Shown here piece by piece: positions 2,976 through 45,069 of a DNA stretch of 64,000 nucleotides. Each line of letters starts with the position of its first letter. The first letter of the stretch is position 1. The position numbers and the translations under genes were made by a program. The notes below the pieces were generated by a model. That model was not told where the DNA came from, ran no database searches, and was given only the letters and a program-made list of their open reading frames with translations. This DNA comes from Tetradesmus obliquus (lineage: Eukaryota; Chlorophyta; Chlorophyceae; Sphaeropleales; Scenedesmaceae): the NCBI GenBank assembly GCA_030272155.1, contig CP126206.1, positions 744,001 to 808,000 on the forward strand, in the 5' to 3' direction.

Positions 2976-4038
2976 AGACTGTGATTGCATGCCAGCCTTT
3001 GCTGCAGCAGTTCTTAGCCTGCACTGCATCCCTTCTGTTGCTGTTCCTGGACTTGGTGCCTGAAGTGCACACCTACCTTTTTATGCTATGGCTGATGTGC
3101 TCCTGCTGCTGCTGGGTATGCAGCTGATTTTACTGCGGCAGTAGCACTGTTTGCAATCTATGATATCTGCCTGGGCAGGAGCAGCAGCAGCAGCAGACGA
3201 CAGGAAACGTTACAGCTATGTGTGCTTTGAATCACGGTGGCATGTGCTTTTCAACTGCAGTTGTTGGTGGGCGTGACAGCAGCAGCATGTGCCAGCAGGT
3301 GCCTCACTGCTGCTACCTAATTTTTTTGCGAAGGCTTTCAGTACAGCGCTGTGTTCAACGTCGTTTAATGTTCATTCCAAATTGTTTACAGGTGCTGCAG
3401 CAACGCGATTGAGCTGCAGTGCTCTGGACATCCGTGTTGACCCGTCAGGCTCACCTGCAACGTGGGCTTGCGAGGGCCCTTCAGGATTGGTTTTCTGCCT
3501 CAACCAAAGGTACGTTGCATAATGTGTCGACGATGATGAGTTGGCAGCGTGGCAGCTGTGTGGCTCGGAGCAGGCTTGTTTCAGGGCACCTTTCCGTCTT
3601 GAAGTTCTTCACCATACCGCAGTTTATTTCGGCTCGAGCCATGCTTAAATCAATCATCAAATATAAAAGTTAATTTACCGCAAGGTTTCTTGCAGGCTCC
3701 GTGCATAAAGCTTGGCAGGCCAACAGTCGTCACAACTCACGCGAGTGACAGCAGCAGGAGCCATGTTCAAGAGCTACGAGCGTAGTTGAATTATGCCAGG
3801 AATTTTTCCGTTACATTCGGCAATTCAGCATGACTGCAAATGCCTGTATGTGAAATGGCCACCAAGTGCCTTGCTGCCTTGCAGCAGTTGTTTGAAGCAG
3901 GAACCGCTCCTGACAAGTCTGAGCACCAAAGCACAACATCCACATGTAGTTTACTCATACAATAAGCTTCTGAACATGCCATTTTGTTCCCACACTCGCT
4001 CTCAGGTGAACACCAGGAAGTAACCACCCTACAGCAGC
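2976..4038. other. Non-coding spacer of the array unit (recurs every 4280 bp)
   Basis: No convincing gene is visible here. A good TATA box, TATAAAA, lies at 3662-3668 on the plus strand, about 377 bp before the first ATG of the nuclease gene, and could be its promoter. Several short plus-strand frames occur (64-84 codons) without recognisable motifs. The equivalent stretches of later copies are 7256-8318, 11536-12598, 15816-16878 and 20096-21158; they are not listed again. Confidence 0.5.
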
Positions 4039-5512
4039 ATGGTGCCAGCACCTCCCAAGCCCCGGGCGGTGCGAACATGCAGGACGGCGACAAGCGCAGG
4101 TGCCCTCAAACAGGTGAGCTCAAGGGCTCTCTGAGTGACACCCTGTGCACTGCTGGCTAGCCATCTTGCATGCAGCTGACAGCCACAATCCCTACATGCC
4201 ATGCAGCAGCACAACAGCAGACTCAGCGCTGGTCTTTCCTGGGGTAGTCGCCAGCAGTGCCGCGGCGCTGCTTCCCGTCTCGGCACACACAAAGACTCCT
4301 CTTGCGGCTGCGCACCATGTTCCACAAATCTGGCAGCTTCAATACATCAGCCATGACAGATGCAGCTGTGATCTTCATAAAGGTGTTGTACAGGCCGTGC
4401 TGCAGGTCTCGCGGCTTCACATCAGCACCACCCAGCTGGCAGCTGTTATACAAGTAGTTGCGGAAGGCTGCTTTGAGGCTGCCAAATGCATGTTCAATGG
4501 GCTTGTTGAAATCTGGGGAGTAGGGTGCAAAGTGCAGCAGTTGATCTTCATTGATGCCACCTGCAACCAACATCTGTAGGCCATCCTTCCCCAGGTGAAC
4601 ACTTGGGTTGTCAAAGATGTACAGCGGCGTAGTGCCGCGCTGCGCCTGCTGTTGGTTGGCTATGTCTTTGATCTCCATCATGCAGTGAACAAACTCCAGC
4701 TGAGTCATGCTCTTGGCCTGCTGGGTTGGTTTGTCCTTCAACTGCAGGTGCAAGAATTGCCGGATTGGCAGCGCGCAGCCTTGTTAGCAGCGCAGGAGCG
4801 CAACGCAGCGGTGTGGATGGATGCGATGGGACGCTTCTACATCAGGCTCAGTGCAGACAAGGTCAGATACATCACCAAGTCTATGAGGGGGCAGAGATTG
4901 TTCTGGGGCTTGACTGGCTGCTTGCCAGGTGTGCAGCACTTCAAGTTCTGCGCGCCGCGTGCAGTCGCCACAGCAGCAGCGCTTCAGTGCAAGATGTGTG
5001 CATGTGTGCTGGCTGATATGGTTGGCACATGCATGGGCTACATGCACACAAGCGAGGAGCAGCTGGTGTGCATGCTGTACTGGTTAGGCACCAGCAGCAG
5101 TATGTGTGCTCAGGTAGCAGTGGACTGGTGGGATGGGCGGATTGATTTCCTCCATGCACAGCACAACATGCTGATTCAAGCTGATGGCTCATGTCATGAC
5201 AAGGGTTATTACAGCAGCAGCAGGCAGCTGGTGCTGGAGCGCGACTTTGAGTTCTGCGCTGCAGCATATGACAACTGGCTGCAGCCAGGGGGCAGTGTGC
5301 TGCGCGTGAGCACGCGCGGATGTGACATGCACCAATCCTTGCACATTGGTTTCCAGCTTGCTGCTGCAGGTGGTGTCATTGTACTGTCACCAAGTTACTC
5401 TGCTGTTATGTTCACAGCAGAGGACGGGCAGCGCTGCAGCTTCACTACAGCACTAAAAAAAGCACTGCGGGACTGTTACTACACAGTACAGCAGGGCTGG
5501 CATGTCTTTTAA
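4039..5512 (+). CDS. PD-(D/E)XK-like nuclease nested antisense to the transposase, array copy 2
   Basis: Proposed exon 1 is 4039-4113 (25 codons, ending CAG before GTGAGC). Proposed exon 2 is 4748-5512, after a pyrimidine-rich acceptor ending CTGCAG; both junctions are phase 0. The intact copies encode about 286 residues. Exon 2 shows a Cys cluster with a CKMC pair, then SEEQ, then GRIDF followed ten residues later by LIQADG and a His, then ERDFEF and VLRVS. This is the order of the Vsr/DUF559-like branch of the PD-(D/E)XK fold, which cuts DNA. The usual catalytic Glu is Gln here. The homologous gene at 54799-56122 keeps Glu, which supports the assignment. In this copy alone a C-to-T change at about 5510 creates an early stop that removes seven residues. 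Exon 1 is inferred from splice phase only. Confidence 0.7.
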
Positions 5513-6426
5513 TGGCAGGCGCCTGCGCAGTAGCAGCGCACACTCACCATGTACGGTACATTGAGGTTGCCAACATGGTCCTTGTTGTCTGTTGTGCCGG
5601 TGACAAACTTGCAGTAGACGGGCCCGTGCACAGCGTTGACGGCGCAGACAAAGTGCAACTTGACCGGCTCTGCGTCCTTGCCCTTGCGCATCCATTTGCA
5701 TGGCAGCACAGCATGCACGTTTTCATCGTGTGCATCACAATAGACCTTGACGGAGCCGCCTGCCAGGTCTGACATCCAGAATTTGCACTCATCAATGAAA
5801 TATATGCGCTGCAGCATGTCGGGGTCACTTTGGTACTTCTGCCACAGCGCCGCAGCTGCTGCCTTTCGCCTTTGTTTCTGTATCTTTGTCAAGTCCAGCT
5901 TCACATCTATTCTCCTGCGCACCAGGTCGGGGTCAGCCCATTTCATGTACTTCAGCAGTCTCTTGGGTGTGATGTTGTAGTCAGTGCACAGCTGGCGCAG
6001 TGTGTCATTTTCCTGACATGCGACTTCGATTGAAGTCCACCACACGTGCACATCAACCTTTCTCTTTGATTCTGCAGATGGGTAGGCCTTTACCACCTTG
6101 CCAGCCTTGAATATTGTGCTGGCATGGAAGGCGACAGCATGTGGGACATTTGAGGGCCTGCCGCCATGCTTGGGTGTAGCCACTGTGCCGTTTGCTGTGA
6201 AGTTCTTGTGATGAAGTTTGCAGAACCGGTTCAGGTCCCCGTGTACCTCCTTGGCGTAGTCAGGGTACTGCTCTCTGTAATAATATGCGGGCGTAAACTT
6301 TTCGTCAGCTGTGGTCAAAGCCATTATCACACACACCACCGCCGCCACCCTCATGGCCGTGGTGCTGCGGTTGCTCTTCCATCCTGAAGGGTGCTTGCGC
6401 ACCATGGACAGCCCCCCTGCAGGCAT
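4223..6426 (-). CDS. Tc1/mariner (IS630)-like DDE transposase, array copy 2 (complete reference copy)
   Basis: Exon 1 is 6426-5548 and exon 2 is 4741-4223, joined phase 0 across an 806-bp intron (donor GTGAGTG, acceptor CTGCAG). The product is 465 residues from the first ATG. An N-terminal basic, helix-turn-helix-like region (about residues 90-190) contains PKHGGRPS and the NITPKRLLKYM segment. The catalytic triad is visible as D212 in YFIDECKFW, D337 in YIFDNPSVH and E376 in SPDFNKPIEH, so the spacing is DD38E rather than the DD34E of classical Tc1. Such enzymes cut and paste elements at TA sites in known families. The intron is filled by an antisense nuclease exon. Later in-frame ATGs (for example at residue 8 or 25) could be the real start. 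Confidence 0.9.
4742..4747. promoter_or_regulatory. Palindromic CTGCAG serving as 3' splice site on both strands
   Basis: The minus-strand transposase intron ends with the CAG of this hexamer (exon 2 begins at 4741). The plus-strand nuclease intron ends with the CAG of the same hexamer (exon 2 begins at 4748). The two exons are therefore separated by only six bases. The site recurs in each unit, at 462-467, 9022, 13302, 17582 and 21862. Use in vivo is inferred. Confidence 0.6.
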
Positions 6427-6534
6427 GAATCCAAAACATATGGATATGTTAGCTGTGCTTCTAGCAGCAGTGTGAACAGAAGTAACTGGTCAGGTCAAAC
6501 AACAGCCTGCGGCATCATGGAGTTTGACCGGTCT

Positions 6535-7255
6535 CAGCTGGGCATGGTACAAATGTAGCGAACAAGTGGCCTACATATAAATGTCAAGCTTTCAACGACG
6601 AATCTAAATCAATTTGAGCTGTTAGCAGTGGCACAGTGTGCTGCAAGAAAAGTGCTAAAACACGTTGCCCTGAAGTGCCCCGACTCGGCTGTTACATATG
6701 TTAACTTGCGCTGTAGAGTGTTGCTGTGGGTGCTGCTGCCTGCAACATGTTTTGATGTGTATTGTAATTCTTCTGGGCTTCCCTTGCTGGCTGATCAGGC
6801 ACTGCAGTTCTGGTGTGCCAAGTGCCCTGCCGCTGCTGTTGCGCTCTGCTGCTTGGCGCTGTGCGCTGCACATACAGTTTCAACTGTCATATCTGTTACA
6901 TACTGCGCAACACCGCTTCAGGCCCACCGGCAGCTGCTGCGCGCGTGCAGCTAGTGTGGCTGCACAGAGTTTGTTGAGTACTAGTATTCTACACAGTTTC
7001 CTGCAAACATCCTTCTTGTGTGATCAAGGCGAATTCTGGAGCTCAAAATTACTAGCAGTTTGGAGCTGCTGCTGCTGGCAGGTGAGGCCCTGCTGTGCAG
7101 TTGGGATGCAAGCAAACCAAAGCAGCAGCACTGGCAGCTGTGCCTTACTGTGCCTGCCACATACAGCAGGTTGCTATGCCAGCATGGCTGTCTGCTTGCA
7201 AGCTGTGTTGATTTGTTGCAAAATGCAGATGCTGCGTTTGTACCATGCCCAGCTG
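6535..7255. repeat. Terminal direct repeat of the array element, copy 2
   Basis: This is the same 721-bp segment as 2255-2975, one period later. It has the same inverted ends and no difference was noticed by eye. Confidence 0.8.
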
Positions 7256-23654: not shown

Positions 23655-24375
23655 CAGCTGGGCATGGTACAAATGTAGCGAACAAGTGGCCTACATATAA
23701 ATGTCAAGCTTTCAACGACGAATCTAAATCAATTTGAGCTGTTAGCAGTGGCACAGTGTGCTGCAAGAAAAGTGCTAAAACACGTTGCCCTGAAGTGCCC
23801 CGACTCGGCTGTTACATATGTTAACTTGCGCTGTAGAGTGTTGCTGTGGGTGCTGCTGCCTGCAACATGTTTTGATGTGTATTGTAATTCTTCTGGGCTT
23901 CCCTTGCTGGCTGATCAGGCACTGCAGTTCTGGTGTGCCAAGTGCCCTGCCGCTGCTGTTGCGCTCTGCTGCTTGGCGCTGTGCGCTGCACATACAGTTT
24001 CAACTGTCATATCTGTTACATACTGCGCAACACCGCTTCAGGCCCACCGGCAGCTGCTGCGCGCGTGCAGCTAGTGTGGCTGCACAGAGTTTGTTGAGTA
24101 CTAGTATTCTACACAGTTTCCTGCAAACATCCTTCTTGTGTGATCAAGGCGAATTCTGGAGCTCAAAATTACTAGCAGTTTGGAGCTGCTGCTGCTGGCA
24201 GGTGAGGCCCTGCTGTGCAGTTGGGATGCAAGCAAACCAAAGCAGCAGCACTGGCAGCTGTGCCTTACTGTGCCTGCCACATACAGCAGGTTGCTATGCC
24301 AGCATGGCTGTCTGCTTGCAAGCTGTGTTGATTTGTTGCAAAATGCAGATGCTGCGTTTGTACCATGCCCAGCTG
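23655..24375. repeat. Outermost terminal direct repeat; right end of the array
   Basis: The segment matches the other five copies up to its CTG terminus plus one A, then the sequence becomes single-copy promoter DNA of gene A. The array thus ends at the inverted-repeat terminus, as expected for a true element end. It places that end 178 bp before the gene A start codon. Confidence 0.85.
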
Positions 24376-33279: not shown

Positions 33280-36200
33280 ATGGGCTGGCAGCTGTCTGGC
33301 TGAAGTGAGATTCCTCAGCAGCCGTGTGGCAGGCACTTTGGGCGTTTGCAGGTGTAGCTTGTGCAAGCAAGGATGGATTCTACACACTGCTTGCTGGAGG
33401 GCGGCGCGGATGCAAAGTAAGCATGGCATGCATGAAGAATTGCATGGCTGCCCTGAGAAAAATTGTGTTTGTGGAAATGACGATGTGCAGCCACTGGCAA
33501 ATTCCTGTGCAGCTGCTGGCTGCCTGCAGGCTGCTGTCCAGAGAGATGCTACAGCTACTGCTGCACTTGCTTGGTACATATCAATATCTTGTGTTCCGTG
33601 TGTTGAGTATATTGAGCTTTGAGACAGCTGGCACGTGCACGTTGCATGAGTTTGCCAGGCAGAGATACTACTGCCACATATGCACTATTATTGGTGCTTA
33701 TCTTGCACGACATGTGTTGAGTACTTTGAGCTTTGAGACAGCTGGCACGTGCACGTTGCATGAGTTTGCCAGGCAGAGATACTACTGCCACATATGCACT
33801 ATTCTCAGTGCTTATCTTGCACGACAGGTGTTGAGTACTTTGAGCGCTGAAAAAGCTGGCAATGCACGTTGCATGACTCTGTCAAGAAGAGATACTACTG
33901 CTACTGATACACTTTGTTTGGTTCCTATCTTGCGCGACATGCGTTGAGTACTTTGAGCGCTGAGACAGCTGGTGTTGCATGTTGCATGGCTTTGCCAGGC
34001 AAAGATACTACTGCCACTGATGCAGTTTGTCTGATATGTATCTTGCGCTACATCTGTTGAGTTCCTTGAGCGCTGAGACAGCTGGCATTGCATGTTGCAT
34101 AACTCTGCCAAGAAGAGATGCTACTTATATAAGTTGGTTGCTATGTATATCTTGCGCGCCATGCGTTGAGTACTTTGAGCGCTGAGACAGCTGGCATTGC
34201 ATGTTGCATAACTTTGCCAGGCAGAGATACTACTGCTACTTCTGCAATTTTCTTGGTGTCTATCTTGAGCGGCATGTGTTGAGGTATTGAGCTGTGAGAC
34301 ATCTGGCATTGCATGCTGTATGTCTCATCAAGCTTGAGAGGCTCTGGTATGGTAGCATACAGCAGGCACAGCAAAATGGCAGTTGTGGCTTGTGTATCAG
34401 CCAGTAAAGCCTTTATGCTCTAGAGGGTTTATCTGCTGTACAGCTGACATACACGTATGTTTGCAAGCCTCTAGCTGTGGCCCTTTGCTGGTTTCTCTTG
34501 TTATGACCTGCATGCTTTCAGGGCACTTATACCAAGCACTGTATAGATCGAGTGTGAAGCTGTCGTTTGACCAGCCTCAGTTGTTGTACGGAGTCTGCCA
34601 ATAAGGGTTATTGAAAGCCAGCACAGGCAAGGAAGGTCGAAATCTTTGCTGTGTGTGGCTTGGTGATGTCATTGTGTGTCCCTATGAATCAAGCACCATG
34701 GCATGCCTGTGACGCTGTCCGATTGCTGAGACTGTGTCTGCCTTGCAATGCCCGCATCTATTGTGTGTCAACAGTCAGCACACGAGAGGCCAGAGGCCAG
34801 TTTTATGTTGTGCGGCTGAGCACTGCCCGCCTGTCGGTACCGTGGATCCGGATTTTCATCAAGAGACGAGGGCTTGTGCAGTTGGTACCAGATTACGTTC
34901 CAGCCAAGCAATACGCATGCTGTGTACACAAAGTGCACGTGGTGGTTTACAGCCTTTGATATGGCGTGGCCATGCAGTGTGGCTAGTGTCCTTGAGGGCT
35001 GGACTTGGTGCAAGCAGCTTGACAGCTCATACGTAGCTAAACGCTTTTTGGCAAGCCCCACAGAACTTGTGTGCTGATGTGTACTTGATATTGCAATCAA
35101 TTGCAGCCGGTTTTGGCTGCAAGGCCTGCTGCTTGACTCAGAGGGTGACAGGAACCGTTCCTCCCTCTCTCTTTGAGCCATGCGAATGATGCTGCACAAC
35201 ATTGGTTTGCACACTGCACTGCCGTATGGTGCCTTGCTTGTCACTGCCTAAGGCATGCCTGGGCAGGATCGCGGGCATCAGCAGCTGTGGCAGTAGCTAT
35301 TGCAGCGGTTGACCCCTCAATAACTTTAACTTGAAGGCGTGGTTTGTCACTGCTGTGAATATGCGTTCAGGTGAGGCCACCGGACATGTTGCCAGTGGCT
35401 CTCACCCTGCGCTGATCAGAACACTGCTTGGCTGTTACAATTATGTAAAGCAAAGGGGCACACAGTGGATTGGCACGGCGTCAAGACGACCTGCTAGCGA
35501 AACAAAACACCTGCACTTCTCAGGGCAGGTGCAGCCATGATGGGCAACAGGCCTTACTAGCTGAGACAATAATGACCTGCTCCTTCTGCCCGCACATGTT
35601 GCACATCACAGTGCTCTAAAAACAAACACAACACAGCTGCTGTCTCAGGTGCAGGCTTCTGATCACAGGGGCTTCATAAAGGCAAGCTTTGCTGTCGTAC
35701 TGCTGTCACATGTATGGCCAAGGTGCCTGCAATTGCTGCGGGGCCCTGCTTGACAAACTGTTTTGAAGAAAGGCACACAATGCAGCAGGCAGACGAACAG
35801 CAACACAATGTGTACCACACACCATTTCATACGGAGCCGCTGAGGCAATGTAGTGACTCCTTGGTGTGGCCCCTGCAATGCACGCAGTTGCGCCAGTGGG
35901 GCCGCAAATTACAACAGCAGAAGATATATAAGCGCAGGTGATGGCGCAGGTGGTGGCGGGCAGGGCGCACCATATATGTGCTGTGTAAATGATTGAGGCA
36001 GGGGTGTGCGCTGTAGAGCGTTGGATGCTGGAATGAAAGGCCTCGCGGATGAAGTTGGTGGTGCGCAGGGCAATCAAAGGTGGCAGCTAAGCCAGCTGTG
36101 CCTGCAGGGTGCATTTAGGTGAGCCAGGATGTGTGTGCAGTTTTGCAGCACCTGCAAGAGCAAGGGCGACATGCCCTGTTAGCGCCTGTTTCTGGGGTGC

Positions 36201-42690: not shown

Positions 42691-45069
<2,379 letters not shown>

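Follow-up and report, generated by a model that had tools for sequence, protein, structure and literature searches.

Interlocked transposase and nuclease genes in a composite, array-forming DNA transposon of Tetradesmus obliquus

Organization of the interlocked genes

How can genes for a transposase and a nuclease, read from opposite strands, occupy the same DNA, and what might a mobile element gain by keeping them so? The question is raised by positions 4039-6426 of a 64,000-nucleotide (nt) stretch of the Tetradesmus obliquus genome (GenBank assembly GCA_030272155.1, contig CP126206.1, positions 744,001-808,000; the whole stretch is referred to here as the window). Re-reading of the sequence confirms the arrangement proposed in a first-pass annotation: in the gene models, the large exon of each gene lies within the intron of the other, and the coordinates, reciprocal nesting and GT-AG, phase 0 introns all hold. 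The models are as follows.

4039-4113, plus strand: nuclease exon 1, 25 codons, basic; donor CAG/GTGAGC
4114-4747, plus strand: nuclease intron, GT-AG, phase 0, containing transposase exon 2 on the opposite strand; acceptor CTGCAG/GTG
4748-5512, plus strand: nuclease exon 2, with an early TAA stop at 5510-5512 (its sisters run on to the position matching 5533)
5548-6426, minus strand: transposase exon 1, N-terminal part with the first putative catalytic D; donor ATG/GTGAGT
4742-5547, minus strand: transposase intron, GT-AG, phase 0, in which nuclease exon 2, on the opposite strand, takes up nearly all the space; acceptor CTGCAG/TTG
4220-4741, minus strand: transposase exon 2 and stop (coding 4741-4223, stop 4222-4220), with the second putative catalytic D and the E
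4742-4747, unstranded: CTGCAG palindrome, predicted 3' splice site of both genes

The two coding sequences have approximately 2.4 kb in common, with no coding overlap in these models. We infer splicing of both introns from their sequence. The proposal that both genes use CTGCAG as their 3' splice site is supported: the palindrome is unchanged in 6/6 aligned copies (listed below), and the sequence CTTCAACTGCAGGTGCA around this acceptor is identical in all of them. The nuclease exon had also been placed 14 base pairs (bp) or less from the intron boundary, which is true of the family but not of the studied copy. The window contains five further copies of the array unit, and in these the frame continues to a TAG corresponding to 5531-5533, which leaves 14 bp to the intron edge. 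A single base, at 5510, sets the studied copy apart from these five; because of it, the frame of the studied copy stops at TAA 5510-5512, 35 bp short of the edge. Judged by frame length, the early end occurs in 2 of the 10 copies of the window's array.

Conservation and selection

The genome examined is a 104.66-Mb assembly of 17 contigs (labelled C1, C4, C12 and so on; W denotes the window copy), with plant-type TTTAGGG telomere repeats at the four contig ends inspected. The nuclease frame is present in at least 128 copies at 98-100% identity (the best 128 of 282 candidates scored), and a diverged subfamily on C4, C14, C13 and C10 accounts for at least 103 of the 146 matches in a second genome search. 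Six copies were aligned: W, C4, C13, C6a, C6b and C16b. The C4 and C13 subfamilies are approximately 73% identical to the window in DNA and keep both gene models, with the transposase donor GTGAGT unchanged and both proteins open throughout. The 75 nt of nuclease exon 1 are kept without indel in C4, C13, C6a and C16b, again with an unchanged donor (GTGAGC); this exon is not alignable in C6b. Two copies have decayed, C6a by a transposase frameshift and loss of the N-terminus, and C6b by loss of nuclease exon 1, one nuclease stop and an altered transposase C-terminus. In C4, the conserved start of nuclease exon 2 precedes the first methionine of that exon; an upstream exon is therefore needed.

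Comparison of these copies shows that selection acts on both proteins, as judged from their substitutions. Between W and C4, the ratio of nonsynonymous to synonymous substitution rates (dN/dS) is 0.59 for nuclease exon 2 and 0.37 for each of the two transposase exons, whereas nuclease exon 2 read in its five alternative frames (W vs C13) has ratios of 0.69-1.19 and contains 2-11 stops. When the 217 substitutions observed between W and C4 in nuclease exon 2 were placed at random in 5000 trials, a mean of 6.2 stops was generated (observed: 0; 7 trials stop-free) together with a mean of 132.1 amino-acid changes (observed: 107; no trial had as few). Neither transposase exon reached so few amino-acid changes in any of 5000 trials for the same pair.

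Searches of the protein database returned 30 relatives of the nuclease (21 in a first search and 9 in a second), with identities down to 28-31%, and 16 of the transposase, 28-99% identical across the aligned part. None of these 16 covers exon 2 or reads beyond the donor, and none is intron-free, the length limits having allowed a full-length intron-free protein. As aligned, the first intron codon is valine (a GT codon) in 15/16, P0035 being the exception, and 12 of those 15 have Val-Ser, as GTGAGT reads. The last 45 residues of the 16 transposases and 30 nucleases (480 real pairs) were compared for antisense compatibility of transposase read-through with the nuclease C-terminus. Two diverged pairs, P0031/P0046 (52 nt) and P0029/P0014 (50 nt), can on this measure overlap in the same manner as the pair studied here; the best of 300 shuffled pairs reached 31 nt. 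The other 14 of the 16 transposase tails (25 nt or less) fall inside the shuffled range and give no evidence either way. P0031 and P0046 each have a longest contig of 3536 bp (source lgn), and are therefore probably from one contig. In P0001 the antisense of transposase exon 2 precedes the nuclease, and P0018 has an N-terminus that by eye resembles nuclease exon 1. For the nuclease and transposase alignments, no relative was found in viral and genome contig collections; the pattern matches there (15, 31, 34 and 54) all went unconfirmed. In the same genome, queries with P0032 and P0033 for more distant transposase families gave, among the best candidates scored (115 of 400 and 122 of 355), matches to the family studied here only.

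Structure of the element

The genes are carried by an element that, from its repeats, is a composite: 721-bp long terminal direct repeats (LTDRs) flank a 3559-bp core, either singly or in arrays. The parts present in the window are:

1-24375, unstranded: LTDR-core units in a tandem array that repeats every 4280 bp, starting left of the window at C16:724855 and ending at 24375
2255-2975, unstranded: left LTDR of the studied unit, 721 bp, ends CAGCTGGGCATGGTACAAA and TTTGTACCATGCCCAGCTG
2976-6534, unstranded: core with both genes, 3559 bp, starting AGACTG and ending ACCGGTCT
6535-7255, unstranded: right LTDR, 721 bp, common to the next unit

Each LTDR has its own CAG...CTG inverted ends, with 19-bp terminal inverted repeats. 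A blastn search with one unit finds 4280-bp copies with one mismatch each; the window array comprises 11 LTDRs and 10 cores inside one ACA duplication. A single copy at C1:6.40 Mb has the structure LTDR-core-LTDR, with 722-bp direct repeats that are 100% identical, and other lone copies with their own duplications lie at C1:10.84 Mb and C5:3.65 Mb (core inferred from spacing). At 13/13 sites with both ends read, the same 3 bp flank the outermost LTDR ends, arrays included. These sites are a selected subset of insertions, which omits C6a (L069, no right end in the stretch read) and C16:279.9 kb (truncated). The duplications (ACA, TAC, CGG, AAT, TCA, GCA, TTT, GGT, CCT and GCC) follow no TA rule at these 13 sites. 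An array on C12 comprises 24 cores over approximately 97 kb within one CGG duplication. Since the same 3-bp duplication surrounds whole arrays, each array is one insertion that grew or arrived as a multimer.

Some cores abut directly, with CAG (C12) or CTG (C4, C13) in place of an LTDR, which resembles a staggered-excision scar. Spacing in the C12 array is 4280-4281 bp seven times and then mostly alternates between 3562 and 4280 bp, a higher-order repeat of the sort that unequal exchange produces. The core ends form short inverted repeats, GTCT/AGAC or GCCTT/AAGGC, which differ among subfamilies yet remain complementary (L007 at approximately 3455, L071 at approximately 3580, and L050). The resulting near-palindromic core-core junctions are a possible site for the nuclease or the transposase.

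Several other assignments were tried and dropped. TA-flanked, Tc1-like ends (inverted repeat I1 read as TA/CCATG) conflict with the ends of arrays and single copies, which set the border at CAG with 3-bp duplications. C16:279.9 kb is not a solo LTDR, having core sequence on its left side. TGTAA motifs were uninformative as poly(A) signals, the conserved one falling in transposase coding sequence. In a diverged C6 copy (L069 834-1480, and 1510 onward), LTDR and core have opposite orientations, and unrelated sequence replaces the N-terminal part of the transposase.

Identity of the two enzymes

The nuclease looks Vsr-like from its structure model, which agrees with the nuclease assignment of the first-pass annotation. 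A first model (predicted local distance difference test [pLDDT] 54) was set aside for one built from a wider alignment (pLDDT 89.4), in which the nearest fold for residues 97-254 (approximately) is Vsr endonuclease (1cw0, 1vsr), a weak match. Structure alignment A3 excluded P0004, P0018 and P0021, and A5 excluded P0017, P0018, P0021 and P0045. DUF559 is matched in 12 of 27 nuclease members (best E 0.0074), and no His-Me family appears among the Pfam matches of these 27 at E up to 1. Sequence searches gave nothing below E 0.26 in the PDB and nothing below E 0.29 in PHROGs. D133, Q144, G147 and R186 are invariant in the 27 sequences, and D146 and H150 nearly so; the invariant Q presumably stands where PD-(D/E)XK enzymes usually carry E or D. 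The protein differs from Vsr in an additional Cys/His-rich N-terminal part.

The transposase looks IS630/Tc1-like, of the DD38E type, from profile and motif evidence. It matches DDE_3 (E 2.2e-5; 24.8 bits, below the curated cut-off of 28.6) and the NCBIfam IS630 model (E 2.7e-4; 20.5 bits, below the cut-off of 100), so that Pfam and NCBIfam both point to DDE_3/IS630. The putative catalytic triad, assigned by motif, is D212, D337 and E376, the last two being 38 residues apart. These two sub-cut-off matches lend support to a transposase of the general IS630-Tc1-mariner kind, in keeping with the Tc1/mariner label first given to the element. The element is not an ordinary Tc1/mariner element, because its 3-bp target duplications follow no TA rule and it has the form LTDR-core-LTDR, often in tandem arrays. 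The CAG terminal triplet and the CAG or CTG scar are also features of Tc1 and Sleeping Beauty, and 3-bp target duplications occur in Zator. In the available text of two accounts of the IS630-Tc1-mariner group (PMC7386202, PMC8533490), the likeness lies in the DDE domain type and a GRP-like motif in the N-terminal part. Members of the group are said there to duplicate TA, or else TAA or TAAA in the case of Fot types and TATA in that of Sailor, in contrast to the 3 bp of any sequence duplicated here. An IS630/Tc1-like element with varied 3-bp duplications would be an addition to a group described as TA-targeting (PMC8533490, as far as its available text goes).

Comparison with KolobokP and with nested genes

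The closest parallel is KolobokP of animals, which the accessible portion of Kojima and Bao (2022, PMC9587614) describes as LTDR-INT-LTDR composite-like DNA transposons that form multimers within one target duplication of approximately 3-5 bp. Shared with that description are LTDRs with short inverted ends, multimers in one duplication, INT-INT junctions without an LTDR, and a DDE transposase accompanied by a small nuclease on the complementary strand. The enzymes appear to differ (PMC9587614): a Kolobok transposase and a His-Me finger nuclease in KolobokP, and IS630/Tc1-like and Vsr-like proteins here, the comparison being with the published description and the distinction from Kolobok transposase resting on profile matches. 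In the same text, the KolobokP nuclease gene lies downstream whereas the exons are interlocked here; INT-INT junctions have lost 3-4 bp of INT whereas 3 bp of LTDR are kept here; and the termini are 5'-RR...YY-3' rather than 5'-CA...TG-3'. A transposase and nuclease apparently of other kinds than those of KolobokP suggest convergence. This apparently independent occurrence of LTDRs, a DDE transposase, an opposite-strand nuclease and arrays makes the published, speculative idea of nuclease-driven multimerization directly testable.

For the gene arrangement, the available text of PMC10556659 reports the host genes Dync2h1 and CG5674 of Drosophila as mutually nested; the pair described here is likewise nested in each other, with the difference that both genes are in one mobile element and have a common palindromic 3' splice site. 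Among the matches listed in open-licence literature, we recognized no transposon with reciprocally nested genes and, besides KolobokP, no LTDR-type DNA transposon. This exon zipper offers a clear example of how two spliced genes can use both strands of one stretch without coding overlap, and it is kept across deep divergence.

Proposed mechanism and alternatives

The explanation that we favour, with a probability of roughly 60%, is a composite transposon with interlocked genes in which the transposase would mobilize the element and the nuclease, by cutting, would help arrays to grow. The transposase would act on LTDR ends and move LTDR-core-LTDR units, and would sometimes excise a lone LTDR, leaving CAG or CTG behind. 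Cuts by the nuclease would fall inside an LTDR, at its edge or where two cores meet; with a misaligned copy as the template, repair would then add units, producing arrays by unequal exchange. The authors of KolobokP speculate, in the text available, that nuclease cuts induce unequal exchange (PMC9587614); by analogy, this is most likely the mechanism here too.

Some results weigh against this explanation. Nuclease exon 1 by itself gives no clear selection signal (1491/5000 randomizations for W/C4 and 86/5000 for C6a/C4; it is too short for a strong test), the nuclease is under weaker constraint than the transposase (0.59 vs 0.37), and for the close pair C6a/C13 nuclease constraint is indistinguishable from random (497/5000). 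The weaker constraint is what one would expect if the plus-strand frame had arisen by chance, antisense to the transposase intron. We reject that reading as wholly improbable: the frame is kept in relatives, its product has 30 protein relatives down to approximately 28-31% identity with invariant residues as well as a confident predicted fold, and 0/5000 randomizations match its conservation. The arrays, which are long, consist of almost identical units and occur on several chromosomes, might instead be a chromosomal satellite (e.g. centromeric) that captured a transposon. That origin is very unlikely given the lone LTDR-core-LTDR copies with their own duplications (the C1 and C5 sites above), the varied duplications that indicate separate insertions, and the presence of several arrays on one contig (C16, C5).

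An alternative that deserves more weight, while still improbable, is that the nuclease has no part in mobility or array growth and serves another role (e.g. against rival elements or host repair), while the arrays arise when LTDRs undergo unequal exchange of the ordinary kind. For such exchange, direct repeats of 721 bp are long enough, and copies within an array differ by one base in 4280; against this alternative, LTDRs, nuclease and multimers are also combined in KolobokP with another transposase and nuclease (PMC9587614, in its available text). Less likely again is a homing-type selfish nuclease gene that moves from element to element, cuts transposase genes lacking it and is copied in as an antisense intron, tolerated since it is spliced out. 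Nuclease exon 2 does take up nearly the whole transposase intron, and C13 and C6a are unusually alike over approximately 4590-5740, around this exon, and much less so beyond. However, none of the 16 transposase relatives is intron-free, one nuclease exon sits outside the transposase intron, and the tract is a single case that extends past both intron edges, although overshoot would also fit co-conversion of flanks. A conversion tract coinciding with the intron is rejected by the same overshoot; in themselves, positions 4590-5740 form a tract of low divergence in two copies that differ much more elsewhere, such as recombination or conversion would leave.

Returning to the favoured composite transposon, its zipper packs and would link two spliced genes. 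Most of the length of each predicted pre-mRNA is complementary to the other, so that the two may hold each other in check. Compactness is one possible benefit of the arrangement; others are linkage of the two enzymes and antisense control of each gene by the other. The interlock is old. In the simplest account, a nuclease gene came to occupy an antisense position inside the transposase gene, after which the two co-evolved. An intron is present in every relative found, so the nuclease insertion, if that was the origin, is old. More tentatively, and with the odds somewhat against it, nuclease-bearing composite transposons may have arisen at least twice with the nuclease as the engine of array growth in both; here reciprocal introns and one palindromic splice site would lock the genes together, such that the element keeps both enzymes and the transcripts can check each other.

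Other features of the window

Rfam and tRNA scans of the 64-kb window gave no match. At 33599-34313, a 113-bp unit is repeated 6.4 times with 81% matches, forming a minisatellite, and positions 42794-43603 hold a perfect (CA)n repeat, 405 units long, in surroundings of strong GC and AT skew.
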